The position numbers and the translations under genes are program-made. The notes beneath the pieces were generated by a model. That model worked only from the letters and a program-made list of their open reading frames with translations, did no database searches and was not told the DNA's origin. Below, piece by piece: positions 1 through 5,484 of a stretch of DNA of 64,000 nucleotides. The stretch is from Kaistella jeonii (lineage in GTDB: Bacteria; Bacteroidota; Bacteroidia; Flavobacteriales; Weeksellaceae), in assembly GCF_000812865.1 (NCBI RefSeq), contig NZ_JSYL01000003.1, positions 1 to 64,000 of the forward strand, read 5' to 3'. How positions within the stretch are numbered: the first letter of the stretch is position 1; each line of letters starts with the position of its first letter.

Positions 1-81
1 CTTATTTTGAACCTTAATTTCTTGGCTCGAAATAAAATCCTGGAAATAATTTTTAAAAGCAATAACTTTTCTTACTTTCAT
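1..81 (-). CDS. RelE/ParE-family toxin, N-terminal part only (runs off the left edge)
   Basis: Only 27 codons are visible, starting at the ATG whose complement lies at 79-81; the frame is open to the window edge. The protein begins MKVRKVIAFKNYF and continues with a QDF...KVQNK segment. This matches the N-terminus I know from Bacteroidota type II toxin-antitoxin RelE/ParE (Gp49-like) toxins, which are ribosome-dependent mRNA interferases or gyrase inhibitors. The assignment rests on this short stretch. A TACCTTTG promoter element sits only 4 nt before the ATG. The gene lies just beyond an attC-like site, so it may be the next cassette of the array; toxin-antitoxin pairs are common cassette cargo in chromosomal integrons. 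The antitoxin would be outside the window. Confidence 0.55.
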   Translation of the reverse strand, partial: MKVRKVIAFKNYFQDFISSQEIKVQNK

Positions 82-85
82 TTCA

Positions 86-93
86 CAAAGGTA
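86..93 (-). promoter_or_regulatory. -7 element TACCTTTG of the partial toxin gene
   Basis: An exact match to the Bacteroidota TAnnTTTG -7 element lies on the minus strand, 4 nt upstream of the ATG at 81. Transcription would begin at or near the A of the start codon, giving a leaderless mRNA. No -33 TTG is found at the usual distance. Confidence 0.4.
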
Positions 94-161
94 ATTTAAA
101 AGTTACAATTTGACAGGTTTTATTTTAATGTTTCTTTCGGGGAAAAGTTGTCATAGCATAT

Positions 162-294
162 CCTACAACGTTTTGCGTATTGGCGATGGTGCGGCTAAAA
201 ATACAAACTTTTTCTATTATAAATTAATCTTCGGAAAATCTGAAATCTTTAAACTTGCGATTCCCCCGCACTATTGCCAATACGATGTTAGCAG
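162..294 (-). repeat. attC-like imperfect palindrome (long cassette recombination site)
   Basis: Two 19-nt arms, 176-194 (CGTATTGGCGATGGTGCGG) and 266-284 (CCGCACTATTGCCAATACG), pair at 17 of 19 positions, and the other two are G-T compatible. They enclose a 71-nt loop. Outside the arms lie short unpaired spacers (6 nt and 2 nt) and the outer boxes CCTACAAC (162-169) and GTTAGCAG (287-294). This R''-L''-loop-L'-R' layout is that of long integron attC sites. The outer boxes pair poorly with each other, but the 287-294 box is exactly complementary to the start of the lipoprotein unit at 1035-1042, as expected when R' belongs to the next cassette. A transposon end or a plain structured repeat remains possible. 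Confidence 0.6.
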
Positions 295-1042
295 AAGTTT
301 TTTTATTTTTGAATTACGCTTTGTGAGGGCTTAATTTCTGTCTGATCAGAGCTTTTTATCAATTTAACATTGGGCTCTACATACATTGTTTTTATATTTT
401 TGTTATTTGAAATATTGAGTTCCTTAATAGCTGTACCATAGAAATAGAGTTGGTAAACCTTAGGATTGTTTGAAATGTTTACTTTAGTTAAGTTTTTACA
501 GCCATCAAGATTCAAACTTTCAAGATTTATATATTCACTTGCATCAAAACTTATAAAATTGTTGTCACCCAAATATAGTAGTTGAATTTGATTATTTAAT
601 TTTATATCGTTTAAATTTGACATTGCTCCATATAAGGTTTTAAGATTTTTTATTTTTGATAAATCAATTTCTTTTGAATTTTGATTTTGACTAATTCCCA
701 AAACTTCCAATTTTTCTAATTTATTGAGTGGAGAAAAATCGCTAATATAATTTCGATTGAGAATTAGTTCTTTTAAATTTTTAAAATCTTCTATTCCCAA
801 TATATTTGTAATATTCTTTTGTGTTAGATCTAGTTTCGTAACATTTAGTAATTCATTTTCTTCGAAATATCCATTTTTATTTAAGTCAACTTTATTATCA
901 TAAAGAGCATCTGTGAAATTTTGGTCCAGATATATTTTTTTGTGAGGTTGACAATTAAATAATAAAAAATTAATAGTTAATAAAAATAAAATTAGTTTTG
1001 ATTTCATTTTGAAAAGTGTGTTTGTATAAAATTTCTGCTAAC
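169..1042 (-). mobile_element. Candidate integron-like gene cassette carrying the LRR lipoprotein
   Basis: Read on the minus strand, the unit starts with GTTAGCAGAAATTTT (1042 down to 1028), carries one gene in the same orientation, and ends with the attC-like site whose first box is CTGCTAAC (294 down to 287) and whose last box is GTTGTAGG (169 down to 162). If the unit were excised as a circle by G/TT cleavage, GTTAGCAG and CTGCTAAC would pair perfectly across the folded site, which is the signature of a cassette. No target-site duplication flanks the inverted ends and there is no transposase inside, which argues against a transposon. The status is inferred from structure alone. Confidence 0.55.
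303..1007 (-). CDS. EF-hand/leucine-rich-repeat lipoprotein
   Basis: A 234-residue secreted lipoprotein: basic start, hydrophobic stretch and lipobox LLFNC with Cys about residue 19. An EF-hand-like calcium loop DLNKNGYFEENE follows (about residues 42-53), then about six leucine-rich repeats (patterns such as NLKELILNRN and KLEVLGISQN). This order is typical of flavobacterial LRR proteins; the function is probably surface binding, and the ligand is unknown. Relatives are often longer and may carry a T9SS sorting domain, which is absent here. The gene is visibly more AT-rich than the housekeeping genes to its right. It lies alone between two folded repeat sites and follows the recombinase on the same strand, suggesting acquisition as a mobile cassette. 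Confidence 0.8.
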   Translation of the reverse strand: MKSKLILFLLTINFLLFNCQPHKKIYLDQNFTDALYDNKVDLNKNGYFEENELLNVTKLDLTQKNITNILGIEDFKNLKELILNRNYISDFSPLNKLEKLEVLGISQNQNSKEIDLSKIKNLKTLYGAMSNLNDIKLNNQIQLLYLGDNNFISFDASEYINLESLNLDGCKNLTKVNISNNPKVYQLYFYGTAIKELNISNNKNIKTMYVEPNVKLIKSSDQTEIKPSQSVIQK

Positions 1043-1052
1043 TTGTATATAT

Positions 1053-1113
1053 GTCTTACATCGTCAGACAAATACAACGTATTTGGTAGGGATTTGTCTG
1101 ATAGACGTAAGAC
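1053..1113. repeat. 61-bp near-perfect palindrome beside the recombinase gene (attC/attI-like)
   Basis: The outer arms GTCTTAC (1053-1059) and GTAAGAC (1107-1113) are perfectly complementary, as are the inner arms TCAGACAAAT (1064-1073) and ATTTGTCTGA (1092-1101). Unpaired spacers of 4 and 5 nt separate them and the central loop is 18 nt. The outer boxes match the integron R''/R' consensus (RYYYAAC/GTTRRRY) at 6 of 7 positions each. The palindrome starts 33 bp past the stop of the recombinase gene and ends 11 bp before the GTTAGCAG cassette boundary. It could be an attI-like recombination or binding site, or a short attC. No T-run follows either arm, so it is not an ordinary terminator. Confidence 0.6.
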
Positions 1114-1146
1114 TTATTTCTAATCACTAATATATCTATTTTTTCT

Positions 1147-2190
1147 TTATAAATCGTCAAATGGACTTTTTATGTGTTGTAAACTATTTGTACTTACGTG
1201 TGTATAAATTTCCGTAGTTCTGCTGCTGTTATGTCCTAATAACTCTTGGATATATCGCAAATCAGTTCCGCTTTCTAATAAATGGGTGGCGTAACTATGC
1301 CGCAGCCAATGCAAGGTAACCGGCTTTTTGATTTTGGCTTTTCGTAACGCTTGTTTTAATACCGCTTGAAGACTTTTTGCAGAATAAATAGTACCTGCTT
1401 CCTGACCTTCAAAGAGGTAAGTTTTTGGTTTGTAAAGCTGATAATAGATCCTCAATAAATCTAAAATTTTTGGGGATAAAGGCGTAATTCTGTCCTTCTT
1501 TCCTTTTGCTTGTTTAATGAGAACAATATTTCTTTTAGAATCAATGTCCATTGGTTTTAATTGGATTAATTCATTGCAACGCAGACCGCAACTATAGATT
1601 AAAGAAAGCATGGTTTTGTGTTTTACATTGGCATGTGCATCCAGAATATTCTTTACTTCGTCTTTACTCAAAACGTTTGGAAGCACTTTGTTTTTCTTCG
1701 GTCGGTCTATTTTATCAACGTTAATATTTGTATTACGTATAGTCCTAAAATATAATTTTATGGCACTTGTTATTTGATTTTGATAGGAAGCAGAAAAATT
1801 ATTTTTTAGAATATGATCATTATTAAAATCCAGTACATCAGTGTTTGTTAGTTCAGAAATAGATTTATTTCGGAAATAAACAAAAAATAATTTTAAGGAT
1901 TCAGAATACGTTTTGATTGTGTTGCTACTATATCTTTTTGCAGAAAGCCACCGAATAAATTGTTGGAGATGTTCTTCGCCTTCTCTCGAAGGAAGAGTAT
2001 CTTCCCGTTGAATAATATTAAAACGTTCCCTGTTTTCAAAAGTATCCGGAATATGCCACAGCTTTTTTTGCGCACTCCACCGCGCATCACTAATCAGTTT
2101 TATTCTTCGGATGAGATCTTCATCCTTCCCGAATTCTACAGCAATTCTTTCTAAATTATGGTGTTTGATTAATTTTGCTTTCCAAATCAT
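1147..2190 (-). CDS. Tyrosine recombinase/integrase (XerC/D-like)
   Basis: A 347-residue site-specific recombinase with the full catalytic set: R204 (GLRCNEL), K229 (AKGKKDR), H294 and R297 (HWLRHSYATH), H320 (LLGH) and nucleophile Y329 (IYTHVS). An N-terminal extension (residues 1-60, with RWSAQKKLWHIPD) precedes a SAM-like core-binding domain (about 70-155). The K-to-H spacing is 65 residues, near XerD (72) and far from IntI1 (106), so the insertion diagnostic of integron integrases is absent. The C-terminal IKSPFDDL does resemble the IntI tail RSPLDxL. The gene is co-oriented with the adjacent candidate cassettes and is the likely enzyme acting on the folded sites beside it; this is inference. 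Confidence 0.9.
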   Translation of the reverse strand: MIWKAKLIKHHNLERIAVEFGKDEDLIRRIKLISDARWSAQKKLWHIPDTFENRERFNIIQREDTLPSREGEEHLQQFIRWLSAKRYSSNTIKTYSESLKLFFVYFRNKSISELTNTDVLDFNNDHILKNNFSASYQNQITSAIKLYFRTIRNTNINVDKIDRPKKNKVLPNVLSKDEVKNILDAHANVKHKTMLSLIYSCGLRCNELIQLKPMDIDSKRNIVLIKQAKGKKDRITPLSPKILDLLRIYYQLYKPKTYLFEGQEAGTIYSAKSLQAVLKQALRKAKIKKPVTLHWLRHSYATHLLESGTDLRYIQELLGHNSSRTTEIYTHVSTNSLQHIKSPFDDL

Positions 2191-4241: not shown

Positions 4242-4374
4242 GTAAAAATTTGCAATTTGATAAAATATTAATAAAATTCAACTTTATTTTTATTAAATCG
4301 ATAATTTTACCACTTATTGTGTTGATTATTGAATGTTAAGTTAATATTACTAGATTTTTAAAAATGAATAAATA

Positions 4375-5484
4375 CTAAATCGCAAGATATTGTCTTCCCG
4401 AAAGTGCTTTGATGTATCCCGAAATTTCCAATTGTAGCAAATCTGGCAATATTTTATAAGTAGCAATTTCTATTTGTTCCGACAACTCATCCAAAGAAAT
4501 AGGCTTGTTTTTATCAATTGCGTTTAAGATATTTTGTTGCATCTCCGAAAGTTGAATTCGTATTTCGGATCGTGGAAAAAGTTCGCCCGTTTTTTCTTTA
4601 TCCCCGTGAAAACCAAGTTGTTCCCCCAAAGCTGAAATCGTAGAAATAATTGCCGCTTTATTTTGAAATATCAACTGGTTGCAGCCTTGACTGTATTTAT
4701 CTGAAATTCTTCCAGGTAAAGCAAAAACTTCCCGATTATAATTGAGGGCAAAAGTTGCAGTACTGATGGAGCCGCCACCAAAAGCAGTTTCCACCACAAT
4801 AGTTGCAGGAGACAAACCTGCAATAACACGATTTCTCTGAATAAAATTTTCGCGATCAGGCTTTTGGGAAGAATTAAATTCTGAAAAGAGGACTCCATTT
4901 TCTTCCAGGATTTTCTCTGATAATTTTTTATTTTTTGAAGGATAAAGGGTGTGAAATCCATGAGCTAGAACCGCAACAGTGGGGATTTGATTAGCTACCG
5001 AAACTTGGTGAGCTTCAGTATCAACACCTAAAGCCAAGCCACTTACGGTGATTATATTTTTGTTCTTCACCTCTTCTAAAAAATCATGAATGAAATGTTT
5101 TCCGTAGGAAGTAATATTTCTTGTTCCGACTAAACTGAGCGGTTTTAAAGAAGCATCATAGATTCCTTTTTGATAGAGAATTGCAGGTGCATCTTCGCAT
5201 TCGTTTAAAAGTGTAGGCAAATCATTTTGATGACGAAGATTAATTTTGATGTTATTTTTCTCGCAAAATTTTAATTCTTTCTCAGCAAAATCTAAATGGT
5301 CGGGATTACCAATTTCGAGGGAAATTTTTTTGCCAATTCCGTAAATGTTTTTTAAACCTGATTTTGAAAGATCCCAAACTTCTTTTGCAGAACCAACTTC
5401 ACCAACAAGTTTACGGAAAATAATATCGCCGATCAAAGGGCAATGTCGAAGAGCAACAGAATAAAGCGTTTCTTCCGAAAACAT
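4375..5484 (-). CDS. dprA: DNA-processing protein DprA (Smf)
   Basis: Cytosolic single-strand DNA-binding protein that loads RecA on incoming DNA during natural transformation. The 369-residue protein has the N-terminal helical region, the Rossmann-like DprA core with SLVGTRN at about residue 117 and SGLALGVDTEAH at about 147 (the SGxAxGxDxxAH motif), GSISTATFAL, and a C-terminal winged-helix domain (about 310-369). It lies 32 bp downstream of the rhomboid gene on the same strand and may be co-transcribed. A ComM-type ATPase gene is 2.8 kb away, so two transformation-related genes are close. Confidence 0.95.
   Translation of the reverse strand: MFSEETLYSVALRHCPLIGDIIFRKLVGEVGSAKEVWDLSKSGLKNIYGIGKKISLEIGNPDHLDFAEKELKFCEKNNIKINLRHQNDLPTLLNECEDAPAILYQKGIYDASLKPLSLVGTRNITSYGKHFIHDFLEEVKNKNIITVSGLALGVDTEAHQVSVANQIPTVAVLAHGFHTLYPSKNKKLSEKILEENGVLFSEFNSSQKPDRENFIQRNRVIAGLSPATIVVETAFGGGSISTATFALNYNREVFALPGRISDKYSQGCNQLIFQNKAAIISTISALGEQLGFHGDKEKTGELFPRSEIRIQLSEMQQNILNAIDKNKPISLDELSEQIEIATYKILPDLLQLEISGYIKALSGRQYLAI

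Follow-up and report, generated by a model that had tools for sequence, protein, structure and literature searches.

A putative integron-type gene-cassette platform in Kaistella jeonii with a tyrosine recombinase that lacks the IntI insert

Organisation of the locus

We analysed the first 64,000 nucleotides of contig C3 of Kaistella jeonii (NCBI RefSeq assembly GCF_000812865.1, contig NZ_JSYL01000003.1), hereafter the window (C3:1-64000), which belongs to a 3.26-Mb draft genome of 35 contigs and whose position 1 is a contig end. The window carries the integrase end of a large gene-cassette array, with a tyrosine recombinase gene, an attI-like site and a first gene unit that ends in a folded, attC-like site, all on the minus strand. 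A sequence-only reading of the window had described a recombinase gene, a 61-bp palindrome, the start of a gene unit, a folded site, a further boundary and the start of a toxin-like gene; all of these were recovered in place, with the palindrome now assigned as a part of the attI-like site. From the recombinase towards the contig end, the features are as follows:

1147..2190, minus strand: tyrosine recombinase of 347 aa, the putative array integrase, of clade A (open reading frame 2190-1147; Pfam Phage_integrase, 1.2e-38)
1043..1146, minus strand: attI-like site, from the recombinase stop codon to the first cassette, with the ending AGACATATATACAA directly before GTT (position and ending similar in 12 of 18 clade A loci, the window counted)
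1053..1113, no strand assigned: 61-bp inverted repeat within the attI-like site, best inner arms TCAGACAAAT / ATTTGTCTGA (from the sequence, read by eye)
287..1042, minus strand: cassette 1, from GTTAGCAG (1042-1035) to CTGCTAAC; its gene (1007-303, minus) encodes a leucine-rich-repeat (LRR) protein (LRR_4)
294-287, minus strand: R''-like box CTGCTAAC, the reverse complement of the cassette's own start GTTAGCAG
167..289, minus strand: folded attC-like site, AAC...GTT, 123 nt (121.8 bits with covariance model R1, this site being in the training set; folding of both strands; covariation)
272..275, minus strand: two conserved A residues, 275 and 272, facing C at 185 and 188, which makes T.G pairs of them on the opposite strand
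169-162, minus strand: R'-like box GTTGTAGG, which is the start of the next cassette (from the sequence and the continuation on C2/C24)
1..169, minus strand: start of cassette 2, a HigBA-like toxin-antitoxin unit (170-bp contig overlap, Pfam)

The folded site combines an asymmetric spacer with a stem of 19-20 bp and a terminal part of about 70 nt. Cassette 2 enters the window with the first 27 codons of a Gp49/HigB-like gene (81-1, minus; PF05973, 3.8e-20), and a full copy, with the Gp49/HigB-like gene and its helix-turn-helix partner both whole, is found on contig C2 (locus L027:11342-12081, minus). The ends of C3, C2 and C24 share an exact 170-bp overlap, on which the continuation of the window into C2 rests, a link qualified by the presence of this overlap on C24 as well. 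The complementarity that had been claimed between the start and the R''-like box of cassette 1 is exact and extends to 10 nt. It had also been predicted that the next folded site beyond the contig end would begin with CCTACAAC; indeed, such a site closes the HigBA cassette on C2 (L027:11272-11344, minus) and is found again on C24 (L025:6375-6447, plus).

Folded sites and their structure

A search of the genome with the DNA of the window site gave 17 matches, on C2, C3, C4, C7, C11, C23, C24 and C29. An ad hoc scan, in which every palindrome also appears on the opposite strand at lower quality, placed about one site per gene, on a single strand per array, on C2, C23, C24 and C29, and lone folded sites on C4, C7 and C11. 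The latter (C4:177907, C7:215453, C11:30003; 114-123 bits) lie far from arrays and look like isolated attC insertions. With the covariance model R1, built from 32 own-genome sites, 43 matches were obtained in the genome (44 candidates scored), of which 39 were placed individually, two of these being the same site on the overlapping contigs C24 and C29. The array proposed from the window is borne out by these further folded sites, as well as by the cassette ends described below. Within the window itself R1 recovers the 167-289 site only, the next match having an E-value of 0.14, and on 50 kb of the class 1 integron plasmid R751 it gave no match at E<=1. In a chance test, the 20-base stem arm, with up to three mismatches allowed, found nothing in the window but its own partner, with 0 expected. 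An Rfam search of 27 kb of array contigs gave no model of the folded sites; the sole match was Flavo-1 RNA, which in the window lies at 2559-2643 on the plus strand and scores 73 bits, its distance upstream of the recombinase gene being about 370 bp.

Among the 31 distinct own sites, 86.9% of the alignment cells are paired, against 64.9% after shuffling and at most 39.8% with the partners slid; both sides are changed in 142 cells (49 shuffled, at most 30 slid), and such changes are found in 14 stem pairs. When sites of relatives were added (146 distinct sites in total), 85.0% of the cells were paired versus 64.0%, with 613 both-side changes versus 202 after shuffling and 18 of 20 stem pairs changed on both sides, in an alignment that was fitted to R1 and hence leans towards the structure. 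Two stem positions are non-standard on the cassette strand, in 30 and 31, respectively, of the 31 own sites, and A stands opposite C there in 134 and 145 of the 146 sites, corresponding to T.G on the other strand. Bulged (extrahelical) bases are absent from the stem: in the 30 full-length sites, out of 32 aligned, columns 5-24 pair with columns 98-117 and no gap intervenes. Five sites, one of them of 73 nt, were folded as DNA on both strands; the bottom-strand stem was free of bulges in all five (one with a single 1x1 mismatch) and spans the A.C positions, where the top strand opens, and the bottom strand was the more stable in four of the five.

The aligned classes have an asymmetric spacer, of 1-2 nt on one side versus 5 nt on the other, and the sites range from 73 to 124 nt with a variable terminal structure. 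Within single arrays (L024, L025, L027) several stem sequence classes occur, including the short one of 73 nt; site sequences within one integron array are usually more uniform. Passages of PMC2727003 name three hallmarks of attC: extrahelical bases, the first of which is absolutely conserved, a central spacer that is unpaired, and a terminal structure that varies. The present sites share the spacer and the terminal structure, not the extrahelical bases.

This structure bears on the form in which the sites would be used. Cassettes could move via the sites as double-stranded DNA, with the recombinase acting on one R-L core and the palindrome serving as a paired binding site. Such a mode would suit a recombinase that is nearest to XerA/Xer-type enzymes, as Xer-type enzymes use double-stranded sites, and the attI-like site with its inverted repeat does look like a double-strand site. 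We nevertheless consider it unlikely, considering the changes on both sides of 18 of 20 stem pairs, the asymmetry of the spacer, and the near-invariant A.C at two positions, since paired binding sites need no fixed imperfection. A single folded strand is the substrate that we prefer.

Cassettes, their ends and their mobility

For the cassettes, a unit was read from GTT to the AAC of the next site, and its start was compared with its reverse-complemented end using a criterion of at least 8 nt. Here, and in the counts of geometry and attI-like sites below, opposite-strand shadows of palindromes were omitted, together with partial, contig-end-cut or weak matches (for example L124:2468, L130:12582, L131:19879, L132:4258, L154:11706, L163:13076 and L172:8222). 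Complementarity was found for 24 of the 29 own cassettes that are delimited by two sites, as compared to a mean of 1.7 and a maximum of 7 in 5000 permutations; this set, which replaces an earlier test of 27 cassettes after three missed sites were added, excludes the LRR unit of the window and the HigBA unit, both matching over 10 nt. Cassettes of relatives (120 of 149; permutation mean 6.5, maximum 17) and those of named loci from a species genome collection that had not been counted before (58 of 70; mean 2.9, maximum 11) gave similar results; across the three sets, the cassettes are not all independent. Between the two halves of a single linear site, a match over 8 nt exists in only 18 of 245. 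The commonest letters are GTTRNNNGNNA at the starts and GTTRNNNGNNG at the reverse-complemented ends, so the match typically ends at position 11, where A would face C. The median unit length is 737.5 bp (178 cassettes, the 29 own and the 149 of relatives). Complementarity of a unit's own ends is the integron signature.

Two side observations concern the content of arrays in relatives. In genome G029 a 778-bp cassette is present as a tandem duplicate at 99.7% identity (L149:5176-6848, minus), and on a plasmid of Chryseobacterium sp. SNU WT5 an annotated group II intron reverse transcriptase lies on the opposite strand between array sites (L297:23765-25081); group IIC introns target attC sites.

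Seven cassette pairs are common to different genomes over at least 80% of their length, at 80-100% identity. Genomes G012 and G039, of different genera, have a 911-bp cassette in common that is 99.9% identical, with no match upstream and a downstream match of only 134 bp, approximately the folded site, and in two more shared blocks one of the edges coincides with a folded site. Gene content varies between relatives at this very place, as the sequence-only reading would have it: in genome G006 the recombinase adjoins the same gdh and dprA genes (proteins 98.6% and 93.5% identical) with other cassettes behind it, a single delimited cassette being common to the window genome (95.5%), and the flanking match stops with the folded sites. 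From such sharing, with edges at the borders, we infer that the cassettes move as units, also between species. The own assembly in addition forks at cassette borders, as the start of the LRR cassette follows the attI-like site on C3 but a folded site on C23, the HigBA cassette is preceded by the sites of C3 and of C24, and one site, present on both C24 and C29, leads into a different cassette on each; the other contig overlaps that were checked in the assembly, eight in number, measure 169-171 bp. Since the HigBA cassette continues into a single C2 contig, the simplest reading is that the sequenced culture contained the array in more than one state.

That the sites are terminators or repetitive extragenic palindromic (REP)-like elements, placed after genes without any recombination, would account for their position behind genes and for their folding, but it leaves the own-end complementarity, the exact GTT borders and the one-sided placement by recombinases (see below) unaccounted for. 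We therefore regard it as barely credible, and the cassette-precise sharing nearly excludes it, unless the shared cassette is an artefact.

The recombinase in comparison with IntI

In profile searches the window recombinase is nearest to XerA_Arch (NF040815; 220.9 bits, cut-off 220); the integron-integrase model TIGR02249 gives 201 bits (cut-off 265) and XerD 190.4 bits. The sequence-only reading had called it XerD-like rather than IntI-like, of which the second half stands, whereas the first gives way to XerA_Arch. Other members fall on either side of the XerA_Arch cut-off (L102 220.1, but L109 208.7 and L099 208.2 bits), and the TIGR02249 scores of further members stay below 265 (197.9 and 200.2 bits in clade B, 196.9 for another of clade A), with IntI1 of R751 at 507.5 bits; none of the 60 genomes of relatives passed that cut-off. 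The closest solved relatives are 4a8e and 5hxy (XerA_Arch / Xer), and the nearest named relatives belong to Kaistella species, at 76-81% identity.

The phmmer match to the Vibrio IntI structure 2a3v falls into two pieces and skips chain residues 180-246, which contain the IntI-specific part and across which IntI1 aligns without a break. This insert is missing in the window protein and in the 13 relatives shown of 29 aligned. An IntI-specific additional domain around patch III is described as the criterion of integron integrases in parts of PMC9668308. An unrooted tree of 40 rows splits off clade A (13 rows) by one branch (97/93) and sets clade B, together with one clade C row, on another (100/100). 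IntI (6 rows) is a third group (100/99), which joins the Xer rows and lies outside clades A and B (95/90); the weight of this tree is limited by the long Xer branches and by a set of IntI of which 5 of the 6 are IntI1-like. Most clade A and B proteins have an N-terminal segment in common (ARWS..KK.W) that was unseen in the IntI or Xer rows and that might stand in for the IntI insert; in the window protein the N-terminal 75 residues (1966-2190) give a DUF5710 match below cut-off (E 0.016 and 0.0014).

An ordinary integron with a divergent IntI would fit the attachment geometry, the GTT/AAC triplets, the folded sites, the cassette genes and the 201 bits with TIGR02249, and a plasmid copy is even annotated as 'site-specific tyrosine recombinase/integron integrase'. 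It is however very improbable in our view, given the missing insert, the failure of all 60 genomes to pass a cut-off that IntI1 of R751 exceeds, the position of clades A and B outside the IntI group, and a stem without bulged bases. Judged by insert and clade, the window recombinase is not an IntI. A plasmid search for IntI relatives returned none recognisable as IntI among the 50 listed of 739 records.

Placement of arrays, attI-like sites and spread

The clade A set comprises 20 recombinases (18 whole or nearly so, two fragments), with sites at 17 loci. Of these sites, 78 of 79 lie on the 3' side of the recombinase and on its strand, that is, downstream and codirectional, and the three loci without sites have only 184-537 bp before the contig end. 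Clade B (26 recombinases, sites at 24 loci) shows the converse, 115 of 116 sites being on the 5' side and on the opposite strand, upstream and divergent; one of the empty loci has 293 bp of room. The earlier statement that integrase and cassettes share one strand holds for clade A, but not as a general rule, as clade B within the same genus is divergent. Among 80 named loci, seven of which repeat genomes already counted, 44 have sites; every site is on the strand of the recombinase and, with one exception among 143, on its 3' side (142 of 143, three shadows omitted), and 24 of the 36 loci without sites have less than 1 kb of room. By record label, hosts with sites include Flavobacterium, Pedobacter, Cyclobacterium, Belliella, Saprospiraceae, Ignavibacteria and Fibrobacter. 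A second recombinase of this general kind was seen in two pieces at L175 (G000:C1:1-14000; pieces at C1:3257-4128, minus), divergent from sites at 4282-4405 and 4871-4994 (plus) and with a 73-nt site at 932-1004; it is probably a decayed platform within the same genome.

In 12 of 18 clade A loci the first cassette directly follows a conserved CATATAAGTAA-like sequence at a distance of 94-143 bp to the recombinase; the ending that precedes it in clade B is CGTATATTTGAGA-like (ATATTT-type) at 18 of 24 loci, as compared and counted by eye. Inverted repeats, which differ in sequence, occur in several of the 12 attI-like sites of clade A and are weak in L130 and L133. The repeat arms of these sites (1053-1113 in the window) resemble, by eye, the sequence just left of the crossover, and the two seem to vary in step from one species to the next, which would suit extra binding sites of a recombinase that co-evolves with them.

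The search of related genomes with a covariance model, as had been suggested, found R1 matches in 55 of 80 relatives, including all 36 same-genus genomes, own included, and a recombinase match at 1e-40 was obtained in 45 of the 80. Sampled over the phylum, 111 of 296 genomes have at least one site match, many of them a single one. A clade A copy of 78.7% identity with seven sites behind it is found on the Chryseobacterium sp. SNU WT5 plasmid.

Several observations weigh against a platform of this kind. The 8-nt test is failed by 5 of 29, 29 of 149 and 12 of 70 cassettes in the three sets, some of them probably due to sites missed between two found ones, and no conserved attI-like ending could be identified at 6 of the 18 loci of clade A and at 6 of the 24 of clade B. 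The site at L024:6684-6806 is more stable as top strand, so that energy does not always favour the bottom strand. Cassettes that are repeated, or a mixture of strains, could account for the forks. Sites are lacking at clade B locus L137 despite about 9 kb of room, and at 6 of the 48 named loci where the room is 2 kb or more. Clade C has sites at 4 of 8 loci in either geometry (three divergent, one codirectional), and at both type D loci all 8 sites lie on the 3' side and on the opposite strand; the recombinases of C and D, which like that of G017 below follow no single geometry, were not used for the main claim. In genome G017 a further recombinase (C1:2142041, plus) is divergent from, and 164 bp distant to, a folded site (C1:2141755-2141877). 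It is the sole whole-profile match to TIGR02249 in the 60 genomes (C1:2141755-2142922 region; 147.5 bits, below cut-off) and could be another recombinase that serves an array; by eye, the reading frame next to it resembles an IS91-type transposase, and the recombinase was therefore set aside. Finally, sites flanking genes with no recombinase in any relative had been named as a finding that would speak against the array. Relatives do have the recombinase beside arrays, but in 7 of the 36 same-genus genomes the sites occur without a recombinase at E<=1e-40. With a laxer threshold, these seven gave mostly weaker, Xer-level matches, and clade-B-like fragments in G008 and G005; in G005, weaker recombinase frames adjoin sites on C10 and C35.

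These seven genomes, and the presence of clade C, D and G017 recombinases near sites, are what would be expected if the cassettes carried the sites and some other enzyme mobilised them, such as the chromosomal XerC/XerD or a recombinase encoded elsewhere, with the neighbouring recombinase a mere passenger. A passenger would however hardly show so strict a placement, by side and by strand, with respect to two distinct recombinase clades, nor clade-specific attI-like sites that end at the first cassette, and we judge this possibility to be quite improbable. Instead, it is very likely, from these associations, that the clade A recombinase drives the cassette system.

Discussion

Aggregated, the data are best explained by a chromosomal integron-type platform that is run by a non-IntI recombinase on folded cassette sites, a reading we hold with high confidence. 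The anatomy, the borders, the covariation, the strict geometry and the cassette-precise sharing between species can be read directly from the sequences; on anatomy, statistics and comparison, it is nearly certain that this is an integron-type cassette system. It would hence be a system that works like an integron and that, by the tests of IntI and of extrahelical bases, is not one.

Such a platform would consist of the recombinase, an attI-like site and a long array in which most cassettes have one gene and each is closed by a folded attC-like site. The recombinase would excise a cassette, probably as a circle, which would then be inserted at attI or at another site, with exchange within the GTT triplet, which would leave each cassette with its original start box and the end box that is complementary to it. 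The enzyme probably acts on a single folded strand of the cassette site, and the strand to be used is probably marked by the two fixed A.C positions (T.G on the other strand), as substitutes for the extrahelical bases of known attC.

Canonical integrons, such as the class 1 integron of R751 and the Vibrio superintegron, have much in common with this arrangement: a recombinase with an attI-like site and a one-strand, mostly single-gene array, complementary cassette ends, AAC/GTT triplets, a folded site with an asymmetric spacer and a variable terminal part, toxin-antitoxin cassettes and, as for clade B, a recombinase divergent from the array. They differ in that the present recombinases are without the IntI insert, the sites have two fixed A.C (T.G) positions and no extrahelical bases, the arrays hold several stem classes with variable boxes of about 10 nt, and clade A is codirectional. 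In the inverted-orientation integrons of Treponema the integrase is likewise codirectional with the cassettes; their recombinases are IntI, unlike the present ones. XerA_Arch/Xer (NF040815; 4a8e, 5hxy) provides the closest profile and the closest solved relatives, whereas most clade A and B members have about 70 extra N-terminal residues and the present recombinases lie beside cassette arrays; XerA/Xer recombinases serve one chromosomal site. The genomes with sites and no recombinase at 1e-40 are reminiscent of CALIN, clusters of attC sites without integrase as described in a section of PMC9024848, with sites of the present type.

Passages of reviews count Bacteroidota among the integron phyla (PMC9668308, PMC8618304), and the part of the IntegronFinder 2.0 paper that concerns Bacteroidetes proper names one complete integron, in Salinibacter ruber, with only In0 elements earlier (PMC9024848). 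As described in portions of an archaeal study (PMC9668308) and of a 2008 survey (PMC2426708), integrases were chosen there by the IntI domain, a selection by which the present clades would be passed over. A search of the open-access literature, without subscription papers and preprints, found no paper on such arrays, and related arrays across Bacteroidota look overlooked.

We lean, with some reserve, towards a wider view, in which Bacteroidota and neighbouring phyla carry integrons of their own, largely unrecorded, with at least two recombinase clades that lack the IntI domain and with strand choice by two fixed T.G (A.C) positions rather than by bulges. The IntI domain and extrahelical bases would then be dispensable for integron function, and integrons would have arisen more than once or predate IntI. 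If true, searches as now run have overlooked a large pool of cassettes, and a natural contrast would make it possible to test how integrons originated and on what strand choice is based.

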